Source of the DNA: Stigmatella aurantiaca DW4/3-1
GTDB taxonomy: Bacteria > Myxococcota > Myxococcia > Myxococcales > Myxococcaceae
NCBI RefSeq assembly: GCF_000165485.1
Contig: NC_014623.1
Span: 9,690,893 to 9,754,892 of the forward strand
Direction: 5' to 3'
DNA: 64,000 nucleotides
Positions within the stretch are counted from its first letter, which is position 1, and each line of letters opens with the position of its first letter. This document shows, one piece after another, positions 12,216 to 35,720 of the stretch. The position numbers and the translations under genes were made by a program. The notes beneath the pieces were generated by a model that worked only from the letters and a program-made list of their open reading frames with translations, ran no database searches and was not told the origin of the DNA.

Positions 12216-12737
12216 TCAACGGACCCGGTCCGCCTGGGCCCGCTGGACGGTTCGCACCAGGTGCGCCTCCGCCTGGAGCCGCTCCACATAGTGCGATGGA
12301 AGCCCCGCGTGCTCCGCGGCCTGAGCCAGTGCCACGAGAAAGGCCACGCTCACCGGCCCCGGTGGAGGGTTCCTCGGCTCGGCGGGGCTGAAGGCCCGCG
12401 CGGCGCGGACGGCCCCGGAGGCGGTGCGCACCCGCACCGGACGTTCTCCGGTGGCCCCTCCCAGCAGCGCTTCCAGCCGCGCCACCGGGCCCCACGCCGG
12501 GGAAGGCACGGTGCGCAGCAGCCCCATCACCCGCTGGCCCGGCGCTTCCACCAGCCGCGCCACCCGGCCTCCCCAGTCCGCAGAGGGCACGTCGTAGACG
12601 AGTCCCACGTCCAATGCCTCGGCCAATTCCCCCGTGGGGAGTTCGGGGACTGACGCGCCCTGGAGCCGCTCGCGCACGAGTTCGGGCGCCAGCGTCAGGG
12701 AGAACACGAACCAAGGAAGCGAGGAGGAGCCGGGCAT
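12216..12737 (-). CDS. Gamma-glutamylcyclotransferase-like protein
   Basis: A 173-aa protein starting WFVFSLTLAPELV after a short leader, with ALDVGLVYDVPSADWGGRVA, GQRVMGLLRTVPSPAWGPVAR and RTASGAVRAARAFSP. These resemble the beta-strands of AIG2/GGCT-fold proteins. Typical gamma-glutamylcyclotransferases begin with YFAYGSNM; here the motif has become FVFSLTL, so activity is uncertain. The ATG at 12737 is preferred; a longer frame exists but its N-terminus is Pro/Gly-rich and unlike protein. Confidence 0.55.
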   Translation of the reverse strand: MPGSSSLPWFVFSLTLAPELVRERLQGASVPELPTGELAEALDVGLVYDVPSADWGGRVARLVEAPGQRVMGLLRTVPSPAWGPVARLEALLGGATGERPVRVRTASGAVRAARAFSPAEPRNPPPGPVSVAFLVALAQAAEHAGLPSHYVERLQAEAHLVRTVQRAQADRVR

Positions 12738-12790
12738 GGTGCCAGTCTGCCCTGCTCCCGAAGAGAACGGCGAGTGCCGCGGACCGGCGC

Positions 12791-13120
12791 TTACCGGGCC
12801 GCGGGGAGGTACTGGCTGCCCGGGAAGGCAGGCAGGGCCAGGGCCGGGGTGGCGCAGTCCGCCTGCGGTTGGAAGTGCTGCTCCAGCAGGCGCGTCATCA
12901 GCGACGGGGACGAGGAGGCCCGAAAGGGAATGGGGTACTTGCCGCCACAACCGTTGTAGATGCGACACGTGGTGATGAAACCGTCGCCCTCGTCACAGCG
13001 CCCGCACACCCCATAGCCACAATACTCCGCGCACAGCGGGAGCGCATGCGCGGCGGGGGCCACTGCCGCGGTGACGAGCGAGAGTGCCGAGACGAATCCC
13101 ATCCATGTGTTTCGAGCCAT
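12791..13120 (-). CDS. Small secreted cysteine-rich protein
   Basis: A 109-aa protein with a clear signal peptide (WMGFVSALSLVTAAVAPAAHA). The mature part begins LPLCAEYCGYGVCGRCDEGD, followed by TTCRIYNGCGGKYPIPF, so seven Cys are clustered in the first 40 mature residues, suggesting a disulfide-knotted peptide. The tail is unstructured. The ATG at 13120 has AGGAGG six bases upstream. I do not recognise the family. Confidence 0.65.
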   Translation of the reverse strand: MARNTWMGFVSALSLVTAAVAPAAHALPLCAEYCGYGVCGRCDEGDGFITTCRIYNGCGGKYPIPFRASSSPSLMTRLLEQHFQPQADCATPALALPAFPGSQYLPAAR

Positions 13121-13146
13121 GTGCAACCTCCTGGACGACCTTGTGA

Positions 13147-13168
13147 CCCGTGAAAATTATCACACGGG
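13147..13168. terminator. Hairpin between the Kup gene and the small secreted protein gene
   Basis: CCCGTG and CACGGG form a 6-bp stem around an AT-rich 10-base loop, directly after the stop of the Kup gene on the minus strand. The stem is short and no U-run follows, so it could equally be an operator. Confidence 0.35.
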
Positions 13169-13186
13169 AGTTGGGAGTGGTTGCGC

Positions 13187-15097
13187 TCAGAGATCGATCC
13201 GGGCGCCCAATTCCATCACCTGCTGGGAAGGAAGACGGACGTAGTCGATCATGGGATGCGCATTGCGTTGCATCACCCCGTAGAGCCGCTTGAGCCAGCG
13301 GGGCACCCCGCCGCCCCGCTGCGCACGAATGCTCACCCGCCCCACATAATAGGTCACCTCCTCGGGCGGGTAGGTCAGCCCAAACTCCCGGGCCCGCCGC
13401 AACGCGTCCGGCACGTCTGGGTGCTCCATGTAGCCATAGCGCGCGACCACGCGGGTGATGCCGGGGCCCAGCGGCTCCTGGGACACGCGCTCGGACGGGC
13501 CCATGGCTGGCACGGGCTCGGTGTGCACCGTCAGCAACACCACGTGCTCGTGCAGCATCCGGTTGTGCTGGAGGTGGTGCACCAGCACCAGGGGCGCGCC
13601 ATGGAGGATGCCGCTCAGGAAGACCGCCGTGCCCTTCACCCGGGGCAGGCCGTTCGCGTCCGCCCCTTGCAGGAGCGTGTTCAGCTCCAGCCCTCGGGCG
13701 TTGTGGTGTTCGATGAGCAACCGCCGCCCCCGCTGCCAGACCTCCATCAACAGAAAGGCCGCCGCCCCGATCGCCAGCGGGAACCAGCCTCCCTCGACCA
13801 CCTTGAGCAGGTTGGCGCCCAGAAAGGACAGGTCCAAGACGAGGAATCCGCCCACCACGGGCAGCCATCCCCAGACAGGCCAGTGCCACCGCTCCCGCAC
13901 CACCGCCGCGAAGAGCACCGTGGTGATGAGCATGGTCCCCGCCACCGCCACCCCGTACGCCGCGGCCAGCGCGCCGGACGAGCGGAACCCCAGCACCACC
14001 CCCACACAGGCGATCATCAACGCCCCGTTCACCCCGGGCAGGTAGATCTGCCCCATGTGCCCCCGCGAGGTGTGGACGATGTGCATGGGCGGGCAGTAGC
14101 CCAGCTGGATGGCCTGGTGCGTGAGGGAGAACACCGCCGAGATGAGCGCCTGGGACGCCACCACCGTGGCCAGCGTGGCCAGCGCCACCATGGGGTAGAG
14201 CGCCCCCGCGGGAAGGGAGCGGAAGAAGGGCGCATCGGCGCTCCCGGGGTGGTGCAGCAGCCACGCCCCCTGGGACAGGTAGCTCAGCACGAGCGCGGGC
14301 AGGGCAAGCATGAACCACGCCCGCCGGATGGGGCTTCGGCCAAAGCCGCCCATGTCCGCGTAGAGCGCCTCCGCCCCCGTGAGGCAGAGGATGACGGCCC
14401 CCAGCACCCGGACGCCGTGCCAGCCCGACTCCTGGAAGAAGCGCACCGCGTGCCAGGGATTGAACGCGGCGAGCACCTCCGGCGCGTGCGCCACGCCCCA
14501 GGCCCCCAGCGCGCCGATGCTCACGAACCACAGCGCCACGATGGGGCCAAACACGCCCCCCACCTTCCCCGTCCCGAGGGGCTGCACCGCGAAGAGCGCC
14601 AGGAGGATGACCACCGTGAGCGGAACGACATAGGGCTCGAAGATGGGCGTGGCCACCTTCAAGCCCTCCACCGCCGAGAGGACCGAGATGGCCGGTGTAA
14701 TCACCCCATCCCCGTACAGGAGCGCCGCCCCGAACAACCCCAGCCCCACCGCCCACCCCGGGCCTCGCCGCGCGGGGCCCTGCCGCAGCAGCGCCACCAG
14801 CGCCAGGATGCCGCCCTCGCCGTGGTTGTCCACGCGCATCAACAGCGTGAGGTACTTGAGGCACACCACCAGGAGCAGCGACCAGATGAACAACGACAGG
14901 ACACCCAGGATGTTGCCCGGCGTCACCGCCACCGCCTCCGGGCCGTGAAAGCTCTCTTGCAGCGCGTACAGCGGGCTCGTGCCCAGGTCCCCAAACACCA
15001 CCCCCATCGCCGACAGGACGAGGAGCCAGGGCCGGGCTGGCCCGGACGCTTCGCGCCGATGGGGAGCGGGACCGGTCACGCCCTGCGTTGGTAGCAC
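13187..15097 (-). CDS. kup: Kup-family potassium uptake transporter
   Basis: A 636-aa KUP/HAK/KT transporter that imports K+ with H+. The family signature GVVFGDLGTSPLYAL opens the first membrane span, followed by GVLSLFIWSLLLVVCLKYL and NHGEGGILALVALL. About twelve hydrophobic spans run to residue 440. The C-terminal cytosolic part ends EEVTYYVGRVSIRAQRGGGV, typical of the family. The start is GTG at 15097; a later start is possible. The divergent neighbour is an ECF sigma gene, so the 177-bp intergenic region carries two promoters. Confidence 0.95.
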   Translation of the reverse strand: MLPTQGVTGPAPHRREASGPARPWLLVLSAMGVVFGDLGTSPLYALQESFHGPEAVAVTPGNILGVLSLFIWSLLLVVCLKYLTLLMRVDNHGEGGILALVALLRQGPARRGPGWAVGLGLFGAALLYGDGVITPAISVLSAVEGLKVATPIFEPYVVPLTVVILLALFAVQPLGTGKVGGVFGPIVALWFVSIGALGAWGVAHAPEVLAAFNPWHAVRFFQESGWHGVRVLGAVILCLTGAEALYADMGGFGRSPIRRAWFMLALPALVLSYLSQGAWLLHHPGSADAPFFRSLPAGALYPMVALATLATVVASQALISAVFSLTHQAIQLGYCPPMHIVHTSRGHMGQIYLPGVNGALMIACVGVVLGFRSSGALAAAYGVAVAGTMLITTVLFAAVVRERWHWPVWGWLPVVGGFLVLDLSFLGANLLKVVEGGWFPLAIGAAAFLLMEVWQRGRRLLIEHHNARGLELNTLLQGADANGLPRVKGTAVFLSGILHGAPLVLVHHLQHNRMLHEHVVLLTVHTEPVPAMGPSERVSQEPLGPGITRVVARYGYMEHPDVPDALRRAREFGLTYPPEEVTYYVGRVSIRAQRGGGVPRWLKRLYGVMQRNAHPMIDYVRLPSQQVMELGARIDL

Positions 15098-23616: not shown

Positions 23617-24558
23617 TCAGAGGGGGAAGACCTCGCAACTGGCCACCCCCAGACGCACGTGGCCAGAGCCCGGCCGCCGCTCCACCACCCCCGCCGCCCC
23701 TGGGATGCCCAGGGCGCTCAACTGCCGTCGCACCCGGTGGATGTCCACGTTCAGCTTGTTGCCATCCGTGGCCAGCATCTGGCACAGCGTCTCACGCTCC
23801 ACCCAGCCCCGCTCCGCCTCGGGCAAGGCCTTCTCCTGGAGCCGCACGCGCGCCAACGTGGCCAACATATAATGATATGTGCGCGAGGGCAGGACCGTGC
23901 ACCGCTGCCCGTGCACCACCGTCACCACCACGTGCTCCTCGTCGCGGCTCACGCCGATGCGCAGGTGCAGCCGCTCGAGCGGGGGCTGTCCCTCCTCGAG
24001 CGTCCGGTCCATGACCGTGGGCAGTTCGAGAACCCACTCCTGCCCCTGAAGCCACAGCCGCTCCTGATCCACCCCGTGCCGGCGCACCTCGCCCGTCTCC
24101 AGAACCCAGCGCCCCTCTCCATCCAGGAAGAGGCTGGCCAGGGGCTCCTCGTCATCGGGCAGTTGCAACAGCGACTCCGAGGCCTCGCGGCACATTCCGC
24201 TTTGGGGACTCCAGGCCCGGGCCGTGGGGGGACGGGCATCCACCAGTGTGAAGGACTCTTGAGAGCGGCCCAGCCGGAAGGTCTGTCCCGCCTCCAGCGC
24301 CACGCGCTCCCCGGGCGCCAACTGCCGTCCCTCCAAGAAGGTGCCGTTGCGGCTGCCCAGGTCCCTCAGCTCCCAGCCCGTGCCCAGCCAGTGCACGCTG
24401 GCGTGCTCTCCGGAGACCCGGGCCTCCTCCAGGCGAATGTCACACCGCGGATGACGCCCCAGCAGGCACCTGCTCCCGAGCGTGAAGCGCTTGCCGTCCG
24501 TCTGCTCCAGGATGCCCATGGTCCGGTCAGCTACTTTCGTGGTCCGGGGAGCGCCCAT
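23617..24558 (-). CDS. FHA-domain protein with C-terminal winged-helix-like region
   Basis: A 313-aa protein. The FHA domain (about residues 15-105) shows LGRHPRCDIRLEEARVSGEH, then WELRDLGSRNGTFLEGRQL: the GRxxxCDI, SxxHA and NGT motifs that bind phosphothreonine. The C-terminal 100 residues (TYHYMLATLARVRL, ERETLCQMLATDGNKLNVDI, HRVRRQLSALGIPG) resemble a transcriptional regulatory winged helix of the OmpR/SARP type. It probably reads a Ser/Thr kinase signal and acts on DNA. The ATG at 24558 has GGAG nine bases upstream. The divergent prenyl synthase gene starts 14 bases away, so it may control that operon. Confidence 0.82.
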   Translation of the reverse strand: MGAPRTTKVADRTMGILEQTDGKRFTLGSRCLLGRHPRCDIRLEEARVSGEHASVHWLGTGWELRDLGSRNGTFLEGRQLAPGERVALEAGQTFRLGRSQESFTLVDARPPTARAWSPQSGMCREASESLLQLPDDEEPLASLFLDGEGRWVLETGEVRRHGVDQERLWLQGQEWVLELPTVMDRTLEEGQPPLERLHLRIGVSRDEEHVVVTVVHGQRCTVLPSRTYHYMLATLARVRLQEKALPEAERGWVERETLCQMLATDGNKLNVDIHRVRRQLSALGIPGAAGVVERRPGSGHVRLGVASCEVFPL

Positions 24559-24572
24559 GCTAGCGTTCTCCG

Positions 24573-25748
24573 GTGACCGATACACCCCGTGTCCGCGAGC
24601 TGTTGACGGGCTACCTGGAGGAGTGCCGCCTCCAGGTCATCCAGGAAATCCAGCGCCTGATCCCCCCGGACCGGCCCGCCGCGTTTCTCTACGAGCTCAT
24701 GCTGGACTACCCCCTGCGAGAGGCCAAGGGGCTGCGGCCCGCGCTCTGCATCGCTGCCTGCCGGGCCTCGGGCGGCACCCTGGAGGCGGCGCTGCGCCCG
24801 GCGGTGGCCCTGGAGCTGTACCACAACGCCTTCCTCATCCATGACGACATCGAGGACGAGTCCCACCTGCGCCGCGGCCGGCCCACGCTGCATCAACTGC
24901 ACGGCGTGCCCGTGGCCATCAACGTGGGCGATGCCATGCTCGCCCTGTCGCTGCAACCCCTGCTGGACAACATCGGCTTCATTGGACTGGGGCCCTCGCT
25001 GCGCATCCTCCAGGAGGTGGCCCGCATGGCGCGCGAGTCCGCCGAGGGGCAGGCACTGGAGTTGGATTGGATCCGCCGGGGGCACTGGGCGCTGGAGGAC
25101 GCGGACTATGTCCGCATGGTGGAGCAGAAGACGTGCTGGTACAGCTTCATCACCCCCGTCACCCTGGGCGCCCTGGCCGCCCGGCAGAATCCCGCACACA
25201 CCGCCCAGCTCGCGGAGTTCGCCCGCTGTCTGGGCATTGCCTTTCAAATCCAGGATGACCTGCTGAACTTGAGTGGCGAGGTGGGCGCCTATGGCAAGGA
25301 AATTGGCGGAGACCTGTGGGAGGGCAAGCGCACCCTCATGCTGCTGCACATGATGCGCCGGGCCAGCCCCCCCGAACGGGCCGAGGCCGAGCGCATCCTC
25401 TCCCTGCCACGTCCTGGAGCAAACCCAGAGCTTCGAGGCCCCGCCCTGGAGCCCGTGCTGGAGCAACTCGTGGCGCGCGGCCAACTCACTCCCGAGGGCC
25501 TTGCGCACCTGAGACACGTGATGGCCGAGGCAATGCCTTCCAAGAAAGAGAAGACGCCCGAGCAAGTACGGTTCCTGCTCAAGCTCCTCCACCGCCACGG
25601 CAGTCTGGACCATGCGCGGCAGGTGGCCCAGGGCTGGCTGGAACAAGCCCGGCGGGCCTTTGACGCCTGCACCGGGTGGCTGCTTCCGTCGGTTCATCGC
25701 GATCTGTTAGAAGTGCTGCTCACCTATGTCGTCGAGCGAGGGAAGTAA
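24573..25748 (+). CDS. Polyprenyl synthetase-family protein (trans-isoprenyl diphosphate synthase type)
   Basis: A 391-aa head-to-tail prenyl-diphosphate synthase homologue. The first Asp-rich motif is intact (HDDIED, Asp91, Asp92 and Asp95) and followed by RRGRPTLH. The second reads QDDLLN (Asp228, Asp229), with the fifth position Asn instead of Asp. GKEIGGDLWEGKRTLML is the usual following block. About 100 extra C-terminal residues make it longer than typical enzymes. GTG start. It heads an operon with two unknown proteins, a CrtC-like protein, an SCP2-like protein and an FAD oxidoreductase, pointing to isoprenoid or carotenoid-like chemistry. Confidence 0.85.
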   Translation: MTDTPRVRELLTGYLEECRLQVIQEIQRLIPPDRPAAFLYELMLDYPLREAKGLRPALCIAACRASGGTLEAALRPAVALELYHNAFLIHDDIEDESHLRRGRPTLHQLHGVPVAINVGDAMLALSLQPLLDNIGFIGLGPSLRILQEVARMARESAEGQALELDWIRRGHWALEDADYVRMVEQKTCWYSFITPVTLGALAARQNPAHTAQLAEFARCLGIAFQIQDDLLNLSGEVGAYGKEIGGDLWEGKRTLMLLHMMRRASPPERAEAERILSLPRPGANPELRGPALEPVLEQLVARGQLTPEGLAHLRHVMAEAMPSKKEKTPEQVRFLLKLLHRHGSLDHARQVAQGWLEQARRAFDACTGWLLPSVHRDLLEVLLTYVVERGK

Positions 25749-26251
25749 TGGCTGACCCGGGTGCACCTCCCGCCGCATCTCTCTTCGATGCCATGCGCCT
25801 GCAAGCCTTGGTGGCGGAGGAGCTGCACCGCATCCAAGCCCTCCTGGGCGAGCGGCTGCTGATGCCCGCCAAACCCGGAGAGCCCGCGCCCACGGAGGTT
25901 TCCCGGGAGAACGAGCCCATTGAGCTGTTGCGGCGCTTGCAAAGCTTGCTGCTACAACACCCCCTGGCAGCACAGGCAGCCTTCTCCGCGCTCATCGCCG
26001 AGGGACGCCGCTTCGCCGCAACCCCCGAAGGCGCCGTGTGGAAAGAAGCCCTGGCGAACTCGGAGCTCGTGCGCAACGGGCGCCTGCTCTGGGATGTGCT
26101 CTCGCTCAACCTCCTGGAGGAGGAGCCATCCACGGTGGTGCCCTCCTCTTATGTCGAGGCCCTCTTCCAGGTGGCCTCCTCCTCTGGGCTGGAGACGCTG
26201 ATGCGCCGACTGCGGGATGCGGGCGCGGAGGGCACCCATGGCGGGCCTTGA
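25748..26251 (+). CDS. Unknown helical protein in the isoprenoid operon
   Basis: A 167-aa mostly helical, soluble protein I do not recognise. A long helix (FDAMRLQALVAEELHRIQAL) and several Leu/Ala-rich helices (IELLRRLQSLLLQHPLAAQA, ETLMRRLRDAGAEG) dominate. Its ATG overlaps the prenyl synthase stop (TAATG) and its end overlaps the next gene, so it is made with them. It resembles the following protein in being short and Leu-rich, and the two may pair. Confidence 0.7.
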   Translation: MADPGAPPAASLFDAMRLQALVAEELHRIQALLGERLLMPAKPGEPAPTEVSRENEPIELLRRLQSLLLQHPLAAQAAFSALIAEGRRFAATPEGAVWKEALANSELVRNGRLLWDVLSLNLLEEEPSTVVPSSYVEALFQVASSSGLETLMRRLRDAGAEGTHGGP

Positions 26252-26555
26252 AGCGCTGCGCGATGGGTTCCACGAGCACGACACCGTGCTGCACCTGCTG
26301 CTGGGGCTCGTCTCGGCGTCGCGGCGGCTGGAGGCACAAATGCTCCCTGCCAGTCTTTCCGCCCCCCAACAGGTCCCGGCCGCGCCCCTGGATGCGACAC
26401 AGGAGCGCCAGGTGTTGGTGCTGCTGGGAGTTCTCTCCATGCGCCGCACGGTGATGGGCCTGCTGGAGCCCCTGCGGCAAACGCGGGAGGCCGCCCCCTC
26501 CCGCCCTGCCGAGCCCCCGGCGGAGCCGCTGAACCTTCGCGCGCTGCTGCGCTGA
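26238..26555 (+). CDS. Unknown small helical protein in the isoprenoid operon
   Basis: A 105-aa protein with two amphipathic helices (HDTVLHLLLGLVSASRRLEA and RQVLVLLGVLSMRRTVMGLL) and a Pro-rich linker and tail. No family recognised. Its start lies 14 bases inside the previous gene. It might associate with membranes or with the preceding protein; nothing in the sequence shows a reaction. Confidence 0.65.
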   Translation: MAGLEALRDGFHEHDTVLHLLLGLVSASRRLEAQMLPASLSAPQQVPAAPLDATQERQVLVLLGVLSMRRTVMGLLEPLRQTREAAPSRPAEPPAEPLNLRALLR

Positions 26556-26570
26556 AGCGCTCCCTGGCCC

Positions 26571-27632
26571 ATGCTCCCGCCCCGGCCCGATCCCGCCTCG
26601 CTCGCGCAGTTGCTGGCAAGCACCGACTACTTCCGGCGGTCTCCTTCGCGGATGGGGGGACGGGCGGAACACAAGGAATGGCAACACTTCATCGTCCACA
26701 CGGAGGGGCTGAACCTGCTGGTGAACTTCAGCCTCGTGGACGAAGCGGGAGCGGCCGCTTCGCGCCCAGCCGAAGTGGCGCGCCTCATCGTCCTGGCCCA
26801 TGGCGCGCAGGGTTGGACAGGTGACCTGGAGCGCTTCGAGGAGGCAGAGGTGCGGGTGGTGGCCGGGGAGCCGCACGCGCGTTTCGGCCGCAACACCTTG
26901 CGCTTCGAGCACGGCCGCTGGCACCTGTCGGTGGCCCTGCGCGAGCGGCCGATCTCGTTCGAGCTGGAGTTCGTTCCCATCACCCAGCCGGCGCTCTCCA
27001 CCCACCGGCCGCTCGCGCCCCGGCGTCCCATCTCCTGGCTCTTTGTCCCTCGGCTGGAGGCACACGGCTCCATCACGCTCGGCGGGCGCACCTGGCGGCT
27101 GGAGGGAGCGCCCGCCTACCACGACCACAACTGGGGCCACTTCCGGTGGTCGGATGACTTCTGCTGGGAGTGGGGCTCCGCGGTGCCGCTGGAGCCAGAC
27201 AACCCCTGGAGCGTGGTGCTGGTGCGCATGGCGGACCGTGGCCGCACGGTGGCGCGCTACCAGGCGCTCTTCCTCTGGGGAGGGGGAGAATCGCTGCGCG
27301 TCTTCCGCGACGAGGAGTTGAGCTTCTCCACCTCGGGGCGCTTCCAGCCCCCCCACCCCTTCTGCTTGCCCCGCCCCATGGCGCTGCTGGCGCCTGGCAT
27401 GGCGGCGGACCTGCCCGGCACTCTGGAGGTGCGGGCGCAAGGCCGGGGGGATGAGCTGCGATTGACGTTCGCGCCCCGGCACGCCGCGCGGCTGATGTTG
27501 CCAGACGAGGCCTCCCTGGAACACGTCACCTCCCTCCACGAGGTGCTGGGCCCGGTGTCGATGCACGGGCGGGTGCTCGGGGAGACGGTGGCGATGGAAG
27601 GCCCCGGCGTCTTCGAGTTCGTCCGTGGCTGA
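26571..27632 (+). CDS. CrtC/AttH-like lipocalin-fold protein
   Basis: A 353-aa protein with the hallmarks of the carotenoid 1,2-hydratase (CrtC)/AttH family: two beta-barrel halves and the central motif APAYHDHNWGHFRW (compare the family's YxDHNWG), preceded by VPRLEAHGSITLGGRTWRLE. Known members hydrate the terminal double bond of acyclic carotenoids or act on related lipids. No signal peptide. In this operon, next to a prenyl synthase and an FAD desaturase-like protein, hydration of a polyprenyl product is plausible (inferred). Confidence 0.75.
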   Translation: MLPPRPDPASLAQLLASTDYFRRSPSRMGGRAEHKEWQHFIVHTEGLNLLVNFSLVDEAGAAASRPAEVARLIVLAHGAQGWTGDLERFEEAEVRVVAGEPHARFGRNTLRFEHGRWHLSVALRERPISFELEFVPITQPALSTHRPLAPRRPISWLFVPRLEAHGSITLGGRTWRLEGAPAYHDHNWGHFRWSDDFCWEWGSAVPLEPDNPWSVVLVRMADRGRTVARYQALFLWGGGESLRVFRDEELSFSTSGRFQPPHPFCLPRPMALLAPGMAADLPGTLEVRAQGRGDELRLTFAPRHAARLMLPDEASLEHVTSLHEVLGPVSMHGRVLGETVAMEGPGVFEFVRG

Positions 27633-28041
27633 GCCCCGGATGGCGGCCCTGCTGGCCGAGTCGTTCGCGGTGCTCGCCCGGGAGCAACCGGCGGCGTACT
27701 CGGGGATGTGCGCTCGGCTAAAAGGCCTGGCCGTGAGGCTGGAGGTGGGGCCCGAGTCCTTCACCGCCGCGTTTGGTGTTGGGCACGCCCAGGTGCGTCT
27801 GCCCGATGAGACGGAGCAGGCCCAGGTCTCCACCGGGCGCGAAACGGTGCTGGCCGTGCTCGATGGCGAGCAATCCCTCACGCAGGCCGTGCTCACGGAT
27901 GCCGTGCGGGTGGTGGGGCCCCTGGACACGCTGCTACGGCTCCACGAGGGGCTGGTGCTCTATGTGCAAGGGGCAGCGCGTGCTCCAGGCTTCGCTGCGT
28001 TGCTGCGGCGCTTGCGCGAAATGGGGTCTTCCATTGCATGA
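27625..28041 (+). CDS. SCP2-like lipid-binding protein
   Basis: A 138-aa protein resembling the sterol carrier protein 2 fold: beta strands (LAVRLEVGPESFTAAFGVG, AQVRLPDETEQAQVSTGRET), then VLAVLDGEQSLTQAVLTDAV with the hydrophobic C-terminal helix PLDTLLRLHEGLVLYVQGA. GTG start overlapping the previous gene by eight bases. It would carry a hydrophobic intermediate between the CrtC-like protein and the oxidoreductase; this is inferred from fold and position. Confidence 0.6.
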   Translation: MAEPRMAALLAESFAVLAREQPAAYSGMCARLKGLAVRLEVGPESFTAAFGVGHAQVRLPDETEQAQVSTGRETVLAVLDGEQSLTQAVLTDAVRVVGPLDTLLRLHEGLVLYVQGAARAPGFAALLRRLREMGSSIA

Positions 28042-28079
28042 TGCCCTCCCGGCGCGCACTGGCGCCAGGAGAGCAAGAC

Positions 28080-30920
28080 ATGCCACCGAAAAAGAGCGCC
28101 TCCTCCCCGCAGCGAAAAACCGAGTCGAATGCGAGAGTCTATATCTATGGGGGAGGAGTCTCGGGGCTGACGGCCGCCCATGAGCTGGCGACGCGCGGCT
28201 TCGAGGTGCTGCTGTTTGAGCGCGAGCGGGCCTTGGGGCCCCGGGGACTGTTGGAGCCGGAGTCGCTCGGTGGAATGGCGAAGACCCAATACTTCACCCC
28301 TGTGCAGGGGGAGCCCATCTCTTTCCAACAGGCCCGCCCCAAGGATCTCGTAGGGCAGGGCGTCGAGGCCGCACGGTACTTTCCGGAATGCTGGCTCGAG
28401 TTCACCGAAGGCCGACAAACGCGGACGCCCCCCTCCTTGACCCCCTCGAAGGAATCCATCGAGCACCTCACCAGCGCCGCCGAGTTCGTCAATGACCTTT
28501 GGAAACAAGAGAAAGAGGGCCGCTTCAATCCAAAGCTGGGTCGGCTGCGTGACATGCAGATCCATGTCCAAGCCTTTACCGACGAGAGCGACGAGCGGAT
28601 CAGGGTGTGGCGGACGGCCACGGGCACTGCCCCCGGGAAGAGCAAGCGAAACGCCAAGGCGCCAGCCGACAATCCGTCCCTCAACAACCGGGTCGAGATG
28701 ACCCGGCAGGTCAAGAGCCTCTTGTCGAGACGCCTCTCTCCCGACCTGCGGCACCGGATCATCCCCCTCGAAGGCCAGGAGTCAGGAAGTTTTCTCAGAG
28801 CCTCCTCCAGCCTGGGGGCCCCTCCCGTCTCGAGAAACTGGGTGCGCATCCTCTTTTACCGGCCCCAGCTCCCCGGTGAGCATGGCTATCGCTTCTTTCC
28901 GTCGTACTACCGCCACGTCTTCGACACCATGGCGCGGATTCCACTCCAGGATGACCAGGGGCAACCCTCGGGTGGCTCCGTCCTGGACAACCTGATGCCC
29001 CTGCCGGAGATTGGCATCGCCAGCAACACCCAGGCCCCCTTCCTGCTCAGCTGGAACTCCCCGCAGACGGGCGATGCTCTCTCCCGTACCGAATACAACC
29101 GGCGCAGGATGGCGGAGCTGAACATCCACTCTCAGGATCTGCTCCAGTTCTCGCTGCGTGTGCTGCGCTACATGCTTTCTTGCCCACAGCGTCGTGCCGC
29201 CGAGATGGAGGAGCTGTCCTGGTGGGAGTACCTGGAAGGCTACGATCTCAAGAAGGGGACGCGCCTGTACCGCTATGGTGAGGCTTTCGCTCATCTGGTG
29301 AAGTCTTCCAGCCGGGTGCTGGCCGCGCTGGACGGGGCGCAGGGAGATGCGCGCACGTGCGGCAACACCTACGTACAGCTCCTCGCCCAAGCCCTCGTCC
29401 CCACGCCCCGTAACAACTGCACGCTCAATGGCCCGACGAGTGAGGCGTGGTTCACGCATTGGCGCACGCACCTCGAGCGGCTGGGCGTCAAGTTCTTCCA
29501 AGGCTCGCTCGCGGGGTTTCAGTTGGAAAATGGCCGGCTGGTTGCCCAGATGGACTATTTGTCAAAGCCCAAGGCCCCCGAGCCACATGGCGGCGCGGGA
29601 GACAAGGAGGCGGTCTACTTCGTCGTGGCGACGGATCTCCCCTCGGCCGCCCAGACCGCGAAGAACCTTGGAGCGGGAATTCCCTCTCAGCTCCAGGACT
29701 ACGCGTCCAAGATACCGGTGCATCCAAGAGCCACCACCTTCCGGCCGAGAACCGAGTCCGAGTGGGAACTCGAACATCCAGCGTGGGACCGGCTCCAGAC
29801 GATCTCTGGCATCCAGTTTTTCTTCGAGAAGCACCTGAACATCGTGGATGGCTACCTCTACTGCGTGGATGCGGAATGGGGATTGTCGGCCATTTGCAGC
29901 CAGCTCGTCTGGAAGGAGCGCCCCATCGCGGCCTTGAGCGCCTACCAGTCCATCCTCAGTGTGGACATTGGGGATTGGAATGCCCCTTCCCGGGAGCTCA
30001 AGAAGACGGCCTCTCAGTGCTCCCCCGAGCAGCTGGCGGCCGAGGTCCTCCGCCAGCTGCGCGTCTCCCTGAGCGCCCGGGGACAGGGACGCCCTCCCGC
30101 AGGGTTCGTTCTGCCAGAACCTGACTGGATTCACATCGACGACAGCTTGGAGTACCTGGCGCCTGAAGAGAAGAGTCCGCCTCTCTCCCTCTTCCGGCTG
30201 GCACGGAACCGAGCGCCCTATCTCGTTCCCATCGCCGGAGACTGGAAGTACCGGCCGGGCCCCGAGCCCTGGGACCCCACCCCTCAAGCAGCCCCACCTC
30301 CTCGCTGGGAGCACCCGGCCTCCGTGTGGCAACCGCCGCAGGGCGGCTATCCGGTGCATTATGACCGGCTCGTCTTCGCAGGCACGTGGACCCGGACCTT
30401 CACGCGGATGACCACCATGGAGTCCGCCAACGAGTCCGCGCGGCATGCCGTCAATGCCATCCTCGACCACCGCACGTTCAAGCATCCCCCGGCCACTGGC
30501 ACGGCCTCCACGCCGTCCACCCCCTCCGCGCCCAGCAGCCACTGGCAATACCCCGGCTCGCCGGGCATCAGCGGGTCCAATCCCTATCAGCGGGGGTTCT
30601 TCCCCACCACCCCGTGGGGGGACTACTGCCGCATCTGGAATCCCGAGATCAACGAGCTGCCAGACCTCGAGCTGCTCCAGCAACAGGATGAAAAGAACTT
30701 CCACCAAGGCCTGCCCCATCCCATGGACATGATGGGGGCCGAGGTGCTGCCCTCGATCTTCTCCCAGGTGCCCGGACTTGGGACGTCCTTCGACTCGCTG
30801 TTGAACTGGGCCGCCTCGCTCGGCGCCACCTTGCCGCAGGCCTCGCACGGGCTGTTGGCCGTGCTGCGCCACCTGCGCTCGGTGCTGGAATCGGCGCCTC
30901 GCTCGCACCACCCCTACTGA
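28080..30920 (+). CDS. Very large FAD-dependent oxidoreductase, amine-oxidase/phytoene-desaturase type
   Basis: A 946-aa flavoprotein, nearly twice the usual size. The FAD-binding Rossmann motif is VYIYGGGVSGLTAAHELATR with the acidic strand end LLFERE. The C-terminal FAD part is LVFAGTWTRTFTRMTTMESA, NESARHAVNAIL. The extra length lies in the substrate region (about 90-500) and in a roughly 130-residue Pro-rich tail (GTASTPSTPSAPSS onward). Related enzymes desaturate or dehydrogenate carotenoids and squalene derivatives. ATG at 28080 has AGGAG eight bases upstream; the ATG at 28038 is an alternative. It ends the isoprenoid operon and overlaps the convergent kinase gene by seven bases. Confidence 0.82.
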   Translation: MPPKKSASSPQRKTESNARVYIYGGGVSGLTAAHELATRGFEVLLFERERALGPRGLLEPESLGGMAKTQYFTPVQGEPISFQQARPKDLVGQGVEAARYFPECWLEFTEGRQTRTPPSLTPSKESIEHLTSAAEFVNDLWKQEKEGRFNPKLGRLRDMQIHVQAFTDESDERIRVWRTATGTAPGKSKRNAKAPADNPSLNNRVEMTRQVKSLLSRRLSPDLRHRIIPLEGQESGSFLRASSSLGAPPVSRNWVRILFYRPQLPGEHGYRFFPSYYRHVFDTMARIPLQDDQGQPSGGSVLDNLMPLPEIGIASNTQAPFLLSWNSPQTGDALSRTEYNRRRMAELNIHSQDLLQFSLRVLRYMLSCPQRRAAEMEELSWWEYLEGYDLKKGTRLYRYGEAFAHLVKSSSRVLAALDGAQGDARTCGNTYVQLLAQALVPTPRNNCTLNGPTSEAWFTHWRTHLERLGVKFFQGSLAGFQLENGRLVAQMDYLSKPKAPEPHGGAGDKEAVYFVVATDLPSAAQTAKNLGAGIPSQLQDYASKIPVHPRATTFRPRTESEWELEHPAWDRLQTISGIQFFFEKHLNIVDGYLYCVDAEWGLSAICSQLVWKERPIAALSAYQSILSVDIGDWNAPSRELKKTASQCSPEQLAAEVLRQLRVSLSARGQGRPPAGFVLPEPDWIHIDDSLEYLAPEEKSPPLSLFRLARNRAPYLVPIAGDWKYRPGPEPWDPTPQAAPPPRWEHPASVWQPPQGGYPVHYDRLVFAGTWTRTFTRMTTMESANESARHAVNAILDHRTFKHPPATGTASTPSTPSAPSSHWQYPGSPGISGSNPYQRGFFPTTPWGDYCRIWNPEINELPDLELLQQQDEKNFHQGLPHPMDMMGAEVLPSIFSQVPGLGTSFDSLLNWAASLGATLPQASHGLLAVLRHLRSVLESAPRSHHPY

Positions 30921-33900
30921 GCGGGCCGCCCCTCGGGCCACGCCCCCACGCCGGGCACCAGCGCGGCCACCAGGGCCCCGGGCCGCACCACGCCCTCGGC
31001 CTCCATCCACTCACGGGCCTGGCGCTGGGAGCGCTCGCCCCCAGCGCCTCCCCGCACCGCGCCCAGGGCCCAGCGCGCCGCCTCCCGGTACAGGGCCATG
31101 TCCTCCCGCGCGAAGCCCTCCACGCTCGCCTCCAGGTCCCGCTGGGCCCGGGCCCCGTCCCCCTCCTGCCAGGCCAGCCCCGCCCGCACCAGCCCCGCCA
31201 GGGGCCGCGCGCAGCCCAGGGGGTCCTTCTCCAGCTCACGCACCTGCGCGCGCGCGTCCGCCAGCAACGCCCTCCGGCGCCAGCGCGAGGGCACCCCGGC
31301 AGGAGGCGGTGTGTCCTCCCTGGCCAGTGCCGCCGCCGCCGCCAGCGCCGCCCGGGCGCGCATGTGCCGCAGGTTCAGCCCGGTGGTCCGCAGGGCCAGC
31401 ATGAAGGAGCCCCGCAGCGGCTCCCACTGATCGAGCACCGCCCGCCACGCCGGCCAGGGCTTCCCCTCGTAGTGCGCCGTGTAGACCGTGGAGATCAGGT
31501 GCGCGAAGTGCTGGCGCCGGTAGGCGCTCTCGGGCCACGTGGACGTGCGCGGGGACTGCGCGGCCATGGCTTCCCCGGCCCGCGCCCGCGCCTCCTCCCC
31601 CAGGTCCCTCGCCAGCCAGGCCACCACCGGCTCGCCCAGGTACGCCTCGCAGCGCGCGTGCAGGTCTCCCCGTTGCTCCGCCTCGTGCTGGAGCGCCTCC
31701 AACCGCGTCCCCAGCTGGCGCAGCTCGCCCCGCATGGCCAGCGCGTGGTGGTGGAAGATGGCCAGGGTGACACGCTCCCAATCACTGCCGGGACAGTGCT
31801 CGCGAAAGAGGGCCTCGGCGCGCGTGGCCTCTTCCACCACCTCGCGCCAACGGCCCTGGGTATAGCCCCGGTTGACGAGCGCCAGCCCATACCACGCCCG
31901 GTCATAGGGCCCGCCCGCGCGCTCCACCTGCCGGCGCACCTTCGCCAGCAGCCGGGCCGCGCTCGCCTCCATCAGCCGCCCCCCCGTGTGCAGTTCCATG
32001 GTCGCCTCCAGCGCCATGGCGCGGCTCAGCACGGTGGCATCCCCCAGCCGCCGCGCGCCCAGCAGGTGCATGGTGCGGAAGGTGTCCGAGAGCATCGGGT
32101 TGACCATCGTCCAGCTCGTGCAGGCCGACCAGAGCACCTCCAGGTGGTGGCGCCCCTCGGGCGAAGCGGCGGCCGGAGCGCGCAGGGCCTCCAGGTCCAC
32201 TGGCCGCGCCAGGAAGAGCAGCCGGCGCCACGTGGCCGCCCACACCGCCGCGCCGAAGGAGCCCGGCACGCTCACCCCGAGCGCGCGCAGCACGGGGTGC
32301 AGCTCGCGCCACCCCTCCTCGAAACGGCCGCTCTTGAGGTACTGCTCGGAGGCGCGCCGCCGCAAATCCCGCTCACGCTCGCCGCCCAGCGCCCGGGCCG
32401 CCTCCAGGTACTGCGCGGCGGCTTCCTCCGCGCGGCCCTGGTTGGCAAGGGCCTCGGCGAGCCGCTCCTGGAGCGCCGGACGGTCCGCGCGGGGCCCCAG
32501 CAGCGCGAGCGCCTTGTGGTAGAGCGCGGCGGCGCTCTCGAAGGCGAGTGCCCGGAAGGCCCGCTCCGCCGCGCGCACCGCGTGGTGGCCCGCCTGCATG
32601 GGCTCTCCCGCGCCCTCCCAGTGCAACAGCAGCGCATCATCGTCCTCGGGAGCGAGCGCGGCGAGGGCCTCGGCCACGGCCCGGTGCCGCCGCGCCCGGT
32701 CCCCGGCGGGCATCCCCCCCAGCAGCGCCTCGCGGATGCGGTCATGCGAGGCGCCCAGGCCCGGCTCCGCGCCAGGCACCTCGCGCAGGAGGCCCGCGTC
32801 GCGCAGCGCGGCCGCGCACCCCCGTCCACCCTCCCCCAGCCCCGAGGCCCTCAAGGCGATGCTTCGCGGCAGGGGCCGCCCCGCCAGCGAGGCCACCTCC
32901 AGCAGGGGCAACGCCCCCTCGGGCAGCTCACGGACGCGTTCGCGCACCAGCTGGGCCACGTCCACCGGAGCACCTGGAGCGAACAGCCCCCGGCGGCCCG
33001 CGGTCAGGGCCAGCTCGCGGGCGATGAAGGGGTTGCCCTCTGCCTGGGCAAGGATGGCTTCGCGCTCGGCGCGAGGGGCACTGGGGACGAGCAGCGCCGA
33101 CACCAGGGCTTCCACCTCGGAAGGCGGCAAGGCCCCCAGGGCCAGCTCGCGTGCAGAGGCCCCCTGCGTGAGGGAGAGGAGCTGGCGCAGCAGCGGGCTT
33201 GCCTCGCGGTCCTCCGCGCGCCAGGTGAGCAGCAGCAGCAGGGGCGGGGCGGGGGGCCGCAGCAACGCCTCAAACAGAGGGGCCGAGTCGCTGTCCCCCC
33301 ACTGCACGTCATCGAGCCACAGCACCAGGGGACGGCCACCGCGGGCCAGATGCTCGAGCACCTCGCGCAGAGCCTGGGCGCCCTGGCGCCGCAACTCCGC
33401 CACGTCCGGCAAGGCAGAAGGGACGGGCTCCTGGGAGAAGGCCGCGAGCCGCCCCAGGACGGGAAAGAGCCGGGCGAGGGCCGCGGCGCGGGAGGGCACA
33501 AGCGCGGCAAGCGCGGCGGCGGGGAGCGACTCCAGGTGGCGGGCCAGCGCATCAACGGCGGCGTCCAGGGCCTTGTAGGGGACGCTCTCCTGAGGGTGGC
33601 AACGTCCGTGCAGCACGAGGGGCCCGCGCTCAGGGGGCTGGAGGGCGAGGAAGTGCCGCACCAGCGTGGACTTGCCGATGCCCGAGGGCCCTTGCATGTG
33701 GACCGTCACCTGCTGCCCCTGGGTAAACACCGCCTCCAGGGCCTGGGAAAGCGCCTCCAGCTCGGACGCGCGGCCGACGAAGAGAGGGCCCGGGAGGGGG
33801 CGCGGCACCGGACGGACGGGCGCCTGCGCGCTGGCCGCGAGCTGGGCGAGACAGGCGTCCACGCTGGGGCGGTGCGCTGGCTCGATCGAGAGCAGCGCCA

Positions 33901-34777
33901 TGGTGAGTTGGGCCAGCGCCTCTGGGGCGCGGGGGGCGAGTTCCCGCACGTGCGGGGGCGCGTGACGCACCTTGCGTTCGAGCAGCCTGCCCCCGAGCGT
34001 GGCAAAGGGTGGCGCTCCGGTGAGCGCCTCGTAGAGCATGGCGCCCACGGCGTAGAGGTCGGCGGCGGGGCCCACGGGGCCCCCTGTCACCTGTTCAGGC
34101 GCCATATAGGCCGGGGTGCCCACGGGGCGGTGGACGAGAGGCTGCTCGGGGAGATGGGGCCGAAACGTGGCGGCGAGCCCGAAGTCGAGCACGACGACCC
34201 GCTCCTGGGGGGTGACCAGCACGTTGGAGGGTTTGATGTCGCGGTGGACGAGCTGCACGGCGTGCAGGGCGCCCAGCGCCTGGAGGAGCTGGAGGAGCCC
34301 CTGGCGCAACCGCGACTCCACGGACTCAGGGCTGAGCAGAGCCACCACGGGCCTGACAGCCTCTGCATCCCCGGGAACGGGGACGGCCGGAAACTCGGTC
34401 CCTTCGGGGAGGGAGTCACCGAGCGTCGAGCCACGGGCGCGGCCCCCAGAGCCACGGGTCCAGTGGAGAAAGTCCACGCCCTCGATGGCCTCCATGGTGA
34501 AAAAGCAGGAGCCCTCCTCGACGAACAGCTCATGGAGCTGAAGAAGGTTGGGATGGGCAAGGCCGACGCGGGTACGGAACTCGCGCTTGAGGGGCAACAG
34601 CGCCTCCGTGGAGGGAAGGCGCAGCGTCTTGAGGGCGACCTCGCGGGCCGTCTCCCGGTCGAACACCCGGTAAACCTGTCCCGTGGCGCCCTGACCCAGG
34701 AGGGCGCGCACCTGGAAGCGAGCCGTACCGGGGAAAGCATCGAAGGAAGTCATGAATGCCTTGGCAAGGAGAGACAC
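30914..34777 (-). CDS. Ser/Thr protein kinase with AAA-type ATPase and TPR-like region (PknK-like)
   Basis: A 1287-aa multidomain regulator. Residues about 20-300 form a complete kinase: LLGQGATGQVYRVFD, VALKTL, QLVHRDIKPSNVLV, LDFGLAA, GTPAYMAPEQV. An ATPase follows with Walker A GPSGIGKSTLV and Walker B PLVLWLDDVQW, as in AfsR/PknK-type STAND proteins. The last 600 residues are helical repeats (ALYHKALALLG, ANQGRAEEAAAQYLEAARAL). It probably couples ligand or partner binding on the repeats to kinase signalling. GTG at 34777 has GGAGG upstream; ATG at 34753 is an alternative. It is transcribed towards the isoprenoid operon. Confidence 0.9.
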   Translation of the reverse strand: MSLLAKAFMTSFDAFPGTARFQVRALLGQGATGQVYRVFDRETAREVALKTLRLPSTEALLPLKREFRTRVGLAHPNLLQLHELFVEEGSCFFTMEAIEGVDFLHWTRGSGGRARGSTLGDSLPEGTEFPAVPVPGDAEAVRPVVALLSPESVESRLRQGLLQLLQALGALHAVQLVHRDIKPSNVLVTPQERVVVLDFGLAATFRPHLPEQPLVHRPVGTPAYMAPEQVTGGPVGPAADLYAVGAMLYEALTGAPPFATLGGRLLERKVRHAPPHVRELAPRAPEALAQLTMALLSIEPAHRPSVDACLAQLAASAQAPVRPVPRPLPGPLFVGRASELEALSQALEAVFTQGQQVTVHMQGPSGIGKSTLVRHFLALQPPERGPLVLHGRCHPQESVPYKALDAAVDALARHLESLPAAALAALVPSRAAALARLFPVLGRLAAFSQEPVPSALPDVAELRRQGAQALREVLEHLARGGRPLVLWLDDVQWGDSDSAPLFEALLRPPAPPLLLLLTWRAEDREASPLLRQLLSLTQGASARELALGALPPSEVEALVSALLVPSAPRAEREAILAQAEGNPFIARELALTAGRRGLFAPGAPVDVAQLVRERVRELPEGALPLLEVASLAGRPLPRSIALRASGLGEGGRGCAAALRDAGLLREVPGAEPGLGASHDRIREALLGGMPAGDRARRHRAVAEALAALAPEDDDALLLHWEGAGEPMQAGHHAVRAAERAFRALAFESAAALYHKALALLGPRADRPALQERLAEALANQGRAEEAAAQYLEAARALGGERERDLRRRASEQYLKSGRFEEGWRELHPVLRALGVSVPGSFGAAVWAATWRRLLFLARPVDLEALRAPAAASPEGRHHLEVLWSACTSWTMVNPMLSDTFRTMHLLGARRLGDATVLSRAMALEATMELHTGGRLMEASAARLLAKVRRQVERAGGPYDRAWYGLALVNRGYTQGRWREVVEEATRAEALFREHCPGSDWERVTLAIFHHHALAMRGELRQLGTRLEALQHEAEQRGDLHARCEAYLGEPVVAWLARDLGEEARARAGEAMAAQSPRTSTWPESAYRRQHFAHLISTVYTAHYEGKPWPAWRAVLDQWEPLRGSFMLALRTTGLNLRHMRARAALAAAAALAREDTPPPAGVPSRWRRRALLADARAQVRELEKDPLGCARPLAGLVRAGLAWQEGDGARAQRDLEASVEGFAREDMALYREAARWALGAVRGGAGGERSQRQAREWMEAEGVVRPGALVAALVPGVGAWPEGRPAQ

Positions 34778-34883
34778 CCCTCTCGCCTCCCCATCTCAAC
34801 ACACCGCCCAGAAAGGCGTGAGAGGTTACAGTGTGTCCGCCACCTCCAGGAAACAGGCGAAAACCGTGGCACCGGAGAATCGA

Positions 34884-35720
34884 ATGACTGACATGCCAGG
34901 AAATCGCGCACTGCTGGACCAGTCGATGGCACTGGCGCTGCTGTCCTGGAGGCTGCATGTCTTCGAGCCCGCGCGGTGGATGAAGCGGCTGGGACTGTAC
35001 CGGGCCAGCACGCTCGGGGCGCCCGTGGTTCCGGGGGTGCCGGGAGGCAGCGGCCCGCACTTGTCGAGGCGTTACAGCCAGCCGGTGCTGCTGCCAGGAG
35101 AGCCCGAGGGCTACAGCGAGGTGAAAGACTTCGACCGGGTGGCGCACCTGTATGAGGCGGCGGTGCGGCCTTTCTCGGAGCCCATCTTGGAGGAGGTAGA
35201 GGCGCTGATGCACCCGCTGTCGCCCCGGGCGCGGGTGCTGGATCCTTCCTGTGGGCCCGGGGGGGCGGTGTTGCGGTTGGCCCAGCGCGTGCCGCAGGGG
35301 GAGGTGGTGGCGGCGGATCTGTCGCGAGGGATGGTGGAGACGGCATGCGAGGCGGCGCGGCGCGCGAGGCTCACGAACCTGGCGTTCTTCCAGGCGGACG
35401 TGGGCAAGCCGCCCGAGGCCTTCACGGGGTACTTCGACGCCATCGTCTGCTGTCTGTCCTTCCACCACTACCCGGATGGCGCTGAGGCAGTGCGGGCCTT
35501 CCGGAAGGTGTTGGCCCCTGGAGGCAAGGTGTTCGTGGCGGACGCGGGCCCCCGGTGGTTCGTCGAGCTGGCGCGGCCCATCTCGGTGCTGGCGGATCCA
35601 GGCTTCGTGCGCCACCGCACGGGAGAGGAATTCCTGGAACTCTTTGCCCACGCGGGCTTCTCACGCGTGTCTTGGATTGAAGTCCTGCCAGGGATTGGCG
35701 TGACCGTCGCCTCGGTGTAA
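34884..35720 (+). CDS. Class I SAM-dependent methyltransferase
   Basis: A 278-aa methyltransferase. The SAM motif I is VLDPSCGPGGAVLRLAQRVP, followed by VVAADLSRGMVETACEAARR (acidic loop after beta 2), and motif IV-like YFDAIVCCLSFHHYPDGAEA with VLAPGGKVFVADAGP. Layout matches UbiE/Methyltransf_11 enzymes acting on small lipophilic substrates. The ATG at 34884 has GGAG six bases upstream; the longer frame overlaps the divergent kinase start. An N-terminal extension of about 75 residues is unusual. It may modify a product of the neighbouring isoprenoid operon, but that is only proximity. Confidence 0.85.
   Translation: MTDMPGNRALLDQSMALALLSWRLHVFEPARWMKRLGLYRASTLGAPVVPGVPGGSGPHLSRRYSQPVLLPGEPEGYSEVKDFDRVAHLYEAAVRPFSEPILEEVEALMHPLSPRARVLDPSCGPGGAVLRLAQRVPQGEVVAADLSRGMVETACEAARRARLTNLAFFQADVGKPPEAFTGYFDAIVCCLSFHHYPDGAEAVRAFRKVLAPGGKVFVADAGPRWFVELARPISVLADPGFVRHRTGEEFLELFAHAGFSRVSWIEVLPGIGVTVASV

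Follow-up and report, generated by a model that had tools for sequence, protein, structure and literature searches.

A conserved, putative isoprenoid-tailoring operon of Stigmatella aurantiaca and the encapsulin-like gene beside its actinobacterial counterparts

The window considered here is a stretch of 64,000 nucleotides from the myxobacterium Stigmatella aurantiaca DW4/3-1 (contig NC_014623.1, positions 9690893-9754892 of a 10.26-Mb single-contig genome). Analysis of its open reading frames (ORFs) places six plus-strand genes at 24573-30920, each of which overlaps or nearly overlaps the next one: a trans-prenyl diphosphate synthase (PPS); two small proteins, H1 and H2; a CrtC-like protein; an SCP2-like protein; and a flavin adenine dinucleotide (FAD)-dependent oxidoreductase. 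The PPS stop and the H1 start overlap as TAATG. The ORFs lie where a first-pass annotation had placed them, with starts now refined relative to the first listing.

That annotation described a single isoprenoid operon, and both the unity of the operon and its theme are borne out, with the gene order kept across loci; the assignment to isoprenoid metabolism is well supported. It had also found phytoene synthase and cyclase to be missing. Neither a phytoene synthase nor a classical cyclase gene is present in the six-gene operon, and the genome's two SQS_PSY family genes indeed lie only elsewhere. Much the same order is kept in distant bacteria, including many mycobacteria. The operon is apparently undescribed: no paper on it, or on a mycobacterial encapsulin-isoprenoid operon, was found in the open-access literature.

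Relatives were sought in named genomes. A genome-contig search with the FAD protein gave no confirmed relatives; an alignment of the CrtC-like protein succeeded instead, finding 223. The loci counted here are the best 80 of these 223, of which 48 are actinobacterial and 32 come from other bacteria, and all counts of gene order are to be read knowing that the loci were chosen by the CrtC-like protein. Their ORFs were called by a purpose-written codon-score script. (Loci are numbered L and genomes G; L055, L057, and L060 come from the same genomes as G060, G094, and G095.) By tblastn, H1 is found no more than 1.2 kb upstream of the CrtC-like gene in 79 of the 80 loci, with PPS upstream in 71 and FAD downstream in 71. 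H1, PPS, the CrtC-like gene, and FAD stand together in order in 65 loci, so the first-pass annotation, which had staked its proposal on conservation of the operon, passes its own check. Counts for the last two genes vary by method: tblastn finds 71 FAD and, with a single query sequence, 43 SCP2-like genes in place, whereas clustering of the called genes finds a member of the FAD cluster in 69 loci and of the SCP2 cluster in 72. Some missing genes reflect cut contigs (for example, L058, L059, and L085).

The nearest named carriers are Corallococcus exercitus and Sorangium cellulosum So0157-2, with 63 % and 60 % identity in the CrtC-like protein. Carriage is patchy: 8 of 195 genomes of the phylum have a strong match, with five more showing partial matches (1e-9 to 1e-6), and a genus search around M. 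aurum found carriers in 47 of 297 genomes.

Four genomes of a single genus-level group, g19, carry tandem repeats of the FAD gene inside the operon (loci L038, L040, L041, and L042); Pyxidicoccus caerfyrddinensis and Myxococcus dinghuensis belong to this group. Four copies are present in G094 and in G104, and two in G109 and in G114; G094 and G104 each have one more elsewhere. (One G094 copy is interrupted with unknown bases, possibly an assembly matter.) In a FastTree phylogeny, the SCP2-adjacent copies of the four genomes cluster (support 1.0), as do three of the four kinase-side copies (1.0). These position-specific clades suggest that the copy positions diverged before the species split.

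Several loci depart from the common plan. In Plesiocystis pacifica (L067:8120-19844) the operon is broken up into two halves that converge, and the genome contains a second CrtC-like gene; PMC6226438 names geosmin, squalene, sterol, and carotenoid among the terpene clusters of Plesiocystis and its relatives. In Sorangium cellulosum (L056:11468-17120), two other genes stand in place of the FAD gene, one for a CHAT-STAND-WD40 protein and one whose product has a sub-threshold match to peptidase C25. The M. lepraemurium locus (L124:7767-13708) looks decayed, with short encapsulin, CrtC-like, and FAD matches.

The encoded proteins

PPS belongs to family PF00348 and carries two Asp-rich motifs, DDIED and DDLLN. 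Its best match in the PDB is the geranylgeranyl diphosphate (GGPP) synthase of Thermus thermophilus (1WMW; E 9.3e-56), which aligns with PPS residues 21-313 and shares DDIED and DDxLN. PPS differs in its length (391 residues versus 330) and its longer C-terminal region, in being encoded with tailoring genes, and in the residues directly before the first motif, which are not identical in the two enzymes. The second motif had been called atypical. DDLLN is real but is the norm of its group: all 75 operon-type PPS sequences compared have DD[LVI]LN, and 1WMW has DDVLN. The four other prenyl synthases of the genome have different pentads at this site.

Alanine at position -5 and phenylalanine at -4 of the first motif are found in 74 of the 75 operon-type sequences, the remaining row being cut. 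By analogy with avian farnesyl diphosphate synthase mutants, Ala and Phe before this motif suggest a C20 product. Together with the closeness to GGPP synthase, this makes C20 GGPP the most likely product of PPS. PPS is thus an extra enzyme, since the genome encodes five prenyl synthases and two of the others have SQS_PSY genes of other pathways 2 and 8 kb away.

The CrtC-like protein is recognized through its predicted structure. Against Pfam it reaches matches below cut-offs only (DUF2804, 0.0027; Tocopherol_cycl, 0.047); Pfam CrtC (PF07143) is not listed for it at E 1 and is matched by just 2 of 37 homologues (best 0.005). Its profile has no believable sequence match in the PDB. The AlphaFold2 (AF2) model, made from the alignment of 37 sequences, has a predicted local distance difference test score (pLDDT) of 93.2 and a two-barrel fold matching AttH. 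Foldseek ranks AttH (2ICH) best at 4.3e-13, and also lists kievitone hydratase and CghA. VIA gives Z values of 27.4 to 23.1 for AttH, kievitone hydratase, fungal pericyclases, and 25-phosphosteroid lyase; the next value is 8.2. The likeness to these proteins, which include the pericyclases Fsa2 and Phm7, extends across almost the whole protein (root-mean-square deviation 3.1-3.7), whereas identity in the Foldseek rows is only 8-16 %. The sequence AYHDHNWG is unchanged in all 37 aligned homologues.

This model makes the protein a candidate hydratase, lyase, or cyclase. The hydratase proposed in the first-pass annotation stands as to its fold, which is also that of a lyase and of pericyclases. 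For this reason, the statement that the operon has no cyclase is unsafe; an acyclic product is possible.

The proposal of an SCP2-like carrier is supported as a sub-cut-off candidate: 14 of 26 homologues match SCP2 at E up to 0.1. The FAD protein has 960 residues if translated from 28038, or 946, the length given earlier, from 28080. It matches NAD_binding_8 (8e-7), DAO, and Amino_oxidase, with the best stretches at an N-terminal Rossmann motif. It falls well short of the phytoene desaturase families (TIGR02734, 17.1 versus 238.1 bits; TIGR02733, 16.4 versus 549.7 bits), which it matches in the N-terminal motif only, and of the hydroxysqualene dehydroxylase HpnE (TIGR03467, 34.9 versus 283.05 bits). 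Beyond this region lie a Pro-rich linker and a conserved C-terminal segment of the type GDYCxIW ... LPH, common to FAD proteins of many loci and lineages. Shorter FAD relatives of about 600 residues from other Myxococcaceae were set aside: in tblastn at 1e-5, eight such loci have the FAD relative, and three a kinase match, without PPS, H1, H2, the CrtC-like gene, or SCP2. This FAD family outside the operon (L047:8079-9866 and similar) has a related PGEHGFRF(F/Y)P motif.

H1 and H2 have no Pfam or NCBIfam match. PDB profile matches of H1 to vinculin (E 0.0046) and FEN1 (E 0.049) are taken as chance matches of a short helical profile. H2, assigned in other loci by position, ends in Leu-Arg in 65 of 74 cases; the figure for the called genes of the 80 loci as a whole, with H2 counted in, is 72 of 1329. 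By eye only, a helix motif appears to be common to the repeats of the FAD tails, the proteins encoded before H1, and the N-terminus of myxobacterial H1.

The putative actinobacterial shell gene and the kinase of other loci

A profile search of six-frame translations found a gene for a divergent encapsulin-like protein of about 260 residues in 46 of the 48 actinobacterial loci, including one fragment of 110 residues in M. lepraemurium. The contigs of the two misses, L085 and L118, start after or within PPS. Where a full gene was called, in 45 loci, it always stands directly upstream of PPS, with -35 to 151 bases to the start of PPS. Scanned alone, members gave no Pfam match (two members) and no NCBIfam match (three members); Linocin_M18 (PF04454) is weakly matched by 4 of 44 at E up to 1 (best 0.0019), and the only PDB match of the profile up to E 5 is the T. 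maritima encapsulin, at E 1.1. The AF2 model has pLDDT 93.3, and its best Foldseek match has E 3.8e-15 and a template modelling (TM) score of 0.77. All 50 Foldseek rows listed are encapsulins or encapsulin-like cages. The model thus has the HK97 fold, closest to family 1 shells, and we read the gene as a divergent encapsulin. A phage origin was also considered: none of 86 pattern matches in viral contigs was confirmed as a shell relative.

Family 1 encapsulins (EncA and those of T. maritima and M. tuberculosis) share this predicted fold with the mycobacterial protein; they differ in sequence (10-15 % identity) and in their company, which here consists of isoprenoid genes rather than DyP or ferritin-like cargo. 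Family 2B systems offer a second comparison. According to PMC8346489, these have a polyprenyl transferase cargo with a disordered N-terminal domain, so a shell gene near a trans-prenyl synthase is common to both. The fold matches in the present case are mostly to family 1 shells, however, and PPS itself was rejected as a family 2B cargo. It scores 180.1 bits against a cut-off of 450 for NF041169, and its PF00348 match runs from residue 42 and its alignment with the Thermus enzyme from residue 21, leaving no room for a disordered N-terminal domain of 50-100 residues.

The shell may house the enzymes. The close linkage of its gene to PPS hints at this, as do the Pro-rich tails of the FAD proteins, which are either fused or, in 23 loci, split off into a separate gene. 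These tails contain repeats of the type LxxYLQAWRxYLEQ, and a candidate targeting motif, [RK]SL[FY], is present in 26 of 41 FAD tails or split Pro-rich proteins.

A different gene accompanies the operon in other bacteria. Relatives of the window kinase that converges on the FAD gene, at E 1e-30 or better, are found in 16 of the 32 non-actinobacterial loci and in none of the 48 actinobacterial ones. The window kinase has nine further matches in its genome at 1e-30, of which one is a full-length paralogue (9582735-9586532).

Proposed function and rival explanations

The computed results are the gene order, its conservation, the predicted folds of the CrtC-like protein and of the mycobacterial shell protein, and the co-occurring genes. 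These features suggest that the operon is dedicated to isoprenoid tailoring and that its proteins probably work together as an assembly. PPS would make a trans-prenyl diphosphate, most likely C20 GGPP, and the SCP2-like protein would hold hydrophobic intermediates. To judge by its superfamily, the FAD enzyme may desaturate or otherwise oxidize the chain; to judge by its fold, the CrtC-like protein may hydrate it, eliminate from it, or cyclize it. H1 and H2 could be assembly or docking factors, H2 acting through its conserved C-terminal Leu-Arg peptide. In myxobacteria, a kinase of one subfamily appears to be linked to the operon, in some with an FHA protein and a methyltransferase that possibly adds a step; in Actinomycetota, the divergent encapsulin gene precedes those for the same enzymes, and the shell may house them.

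A bolder version is held tentatively, at somewhat less than an even chance. An undescribed class of isoprenoid would be made by this assembly, and actinobacteria would enclose the assembly in a new divergent encapsulin lineage: a nanocompartment that oxidizes a membrane-type lipid precursor, with the Pro-rich repeat tail of the FAD protein, fused or split, as the loading scaffold. The wide conservation, the linked kinase, and the actinobacterial encapsulin were all absent from the first-pass annotation.

Such an operon would have consequences in several directions. The gene order recurs in myxobacteria, in many environmental mycobacteria, and in other phyla; it predicts an isoprenoid for which no name was found in the literature, and offers a way to look for this compound. 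Were the mycobacterial encapsulin to hold the enzymes, isoprenoid chemistry would have a compartment unlike family 2B, in a genus with intensively studied lipids. The tandem FAD arrays suggest that the product has been diversified in some myxobacteria.

Several observations weigh against parts of this proposal. The window's SCP2-like protein scores 17.7 bits against 21.3 for PF02036 (E 0.0047), and family matches of the FAD protein are almost confined to the N-terminal nucleotide-binding region. FAD has no tblastn match in 8 of the 80 loci, one of them (L058) cut by a contig end, so oxidation by this enzyme would not be universal. The shell family is found in none of the 32 non-actinobacterial loci, in neither the window nor 11 myxobacterial stretches, which implies that the encapsulin is not needed for the core function. 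Searches at E 0.01 of the window genome, of seven more myxobacterial carriers, and of Sorangium, Plesiocystis, and Allopontixanthobacter were likewise negative. They exclude the close family only, and a more distant shell is possible, because the profile misses the window genome's own classical Linocin_M18 encapsulin, 4.8 Mb away. The Leu-Arg end of H2 is not encapsulin-specific, being present also where no encapsulin is seen; on this pattern, we take it to be a docking peptide for a shared partner rather than a shell tag. Finally, 15 neighbour kinases were compared with the window kinase and its nine own-genome relatives. The window kinase is the best match of 10 and its full-length paralogue that of 5, and the third-best score is lower in all 15 (closest case, 117 versus 210 bits). 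Because the kinases counted had themselves been chosen for their likeness to the window kinase, this subfamily match is partly built in.

Could the product instead be a storage or membrane lipid? Prenyl alcohols would then be modified and esterified, and H1, H2, and accessory proteins would coat a lipid body as phasins do. In all three alphaproteobacterial loci, PPS has a DAGAT-type acyltransferase gene as its neighbour, which fits this idea, as does the resemblance of the SCP2-like protein to a lipid carrier; so does an unassigned gene for 145-351 residues before H1 in 21 loci (directly after PPS in 13), whose product looks helical and then beta-rich by eye. Acylation is nevertheless an unlikely general explanation: the acyltransferase family PF01553 accounts for only 3 of 130 neighbours scanned in non-mycobacterial loci and is absent from the window operon. 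Three accessory proteins scanned have no Pfam phasin match, and a phasin-named NCBIfam match in L125 spans only the C-terminal helix-hairpin-helix part.

The CrtC-like and desaturase-like superfamilies, and the two phytoene/squalene synthase family genes elsewhere in the genome, might also indicate a carotenoid or apocarotenoid cluster that tailors C40 carotenoids supplied by a separate phytoene synthase locus. This is improbable, given that 71 of the 80 loci have their own PPS upstream, that SQS_PSY is not among the 25 families listed for the 130 neighbour genes (the listing stops short of 108 further families), that Pfam CrtC is barely reached by the CrtC-like homologues, and that the FAD enzyme falls far under the crtI_fam and CrtD cut-offs. 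It is very improbable indeed that the genes are unrelated and owe their grouping to chance or to a mobile element. The patchy distribution is what such an origin might leave, but the identical order in very distant bacteria already contradicts it, and a search of 72,556 plasmid records at 1e-10 with the CrtC-like protein of M. aurum was negative.

Other neighbouring genes

The operon of the window is flanked by genes for three further proteins that recur beside it to different extents (Table 1). The FHA gene, with its refined start, lies 53 bases from the PPS start in the opposite direction; the kinase gene overlaps the FAD stop by 7 bases. A second kinase-AAA_16 protein is encoded in the window at 54480-58052, in addition to that at 30914-34753. 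The C-terminal part of the FHA protein, where Pfam gives no match, resembles a winged helix by eye.

Table 1. Genes of the operon and its surroundings in the window, with related features of other loci
Feature	Coordinates	Strand	Evidence or remark
FHA-domain protein	23617..24519	-	Divergent from PPS; PF00498 3.1e-18; refined start
PPS, trans-prenyl diphosphate synthase of GGPP-synthase type; DDIED and DDLLN; C-terminal extension	24573..25748 (GTG start)	+	PF00348 6.4e-59
H1, small protein, helical by eye	25748..26251 (ATG start)	+	Without known family
H2, small protein, Pro-rich linker, C-terminal peptide LRALLR	26238..26555 (ATG start)	+	Without known family
CrtC-like protein with predicted AttH/CrtC fold; hydratase, lyase, or cyclase candidate	26571..27632	+	AF2 and Foldseek
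SCP2-like, candidate lipid carrier	27625..28041 (GTG start)	+	PF02036 0.0047, below cut-off
FAD-dependent oxidoreductase, amine-oxidase/phytoene-desaturase-like superfamily	28038 (ATG; or 28080)..30920	+	NAD_binding_8, DAO, Amino_oxidase
Ser/Thr kinase-AAA_16 signalling protein	30914..34753	-	Pkinase 6.3e-40, AAA_16 7.3e-24
S-adenosylmethionine (SAM) methyltransferase, possible accessory in some Myxococcota	34878..35720	+	Methyltransf_25 7.9e-19
Encapsulin-like gene (example)	L073:7382-8164		
LytB/IspH and DAGAT-type regions	L126:12450-14174; L130:12425-14207; L131:7552-8454 and 12527-13384		

The first-pass annotation had thought that the FHA regulator and the methyltransferase may belong to the operon. 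Both recur in G059, in Corallococcus exercitus (G060, the genome of L055), and in Plesiocystis (L067): an FHA homologue is divergent from PPS in the first two and adjoins H1 in the rearranged locus of the third, and a methyltransferase homologue adjoins the kinase in L036, L037, L055, and L067. At E 1e-30, however, the two are found in only 2 of the 80 loci (L055 and L067), so the case for them as general members is weak.

The neighbours of other lineages differ. A gene for about 1440 residues lies near the operon in 42 of the 48 actinobacterial loci; in L073 it encodes an AAA_16-GAF-nucleotide-cyclase protein. FAD_binding_3 genes (9 of the 130 neighbours) were considered as geranylgeranyl reductases and rejected, since the three identified (L075, L132, and L134) most resemble hydroxylases of the HpxO/UbiH type, with scores below cut-offs. 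In the three alphaproteobacterial loci (L126, L130, and L131), PPS is on the opposite strand and no FAD gene was seen; all three have a LytB/IspH homologue and the DAGAT-type acyltransferase beside the operon (LytB was identified by Pfam in L126 and L131, DAGAT by Pfam in L126 and L130, and the other two by blastp). This pairing fits an isoprenoid that is sometimes esterified.

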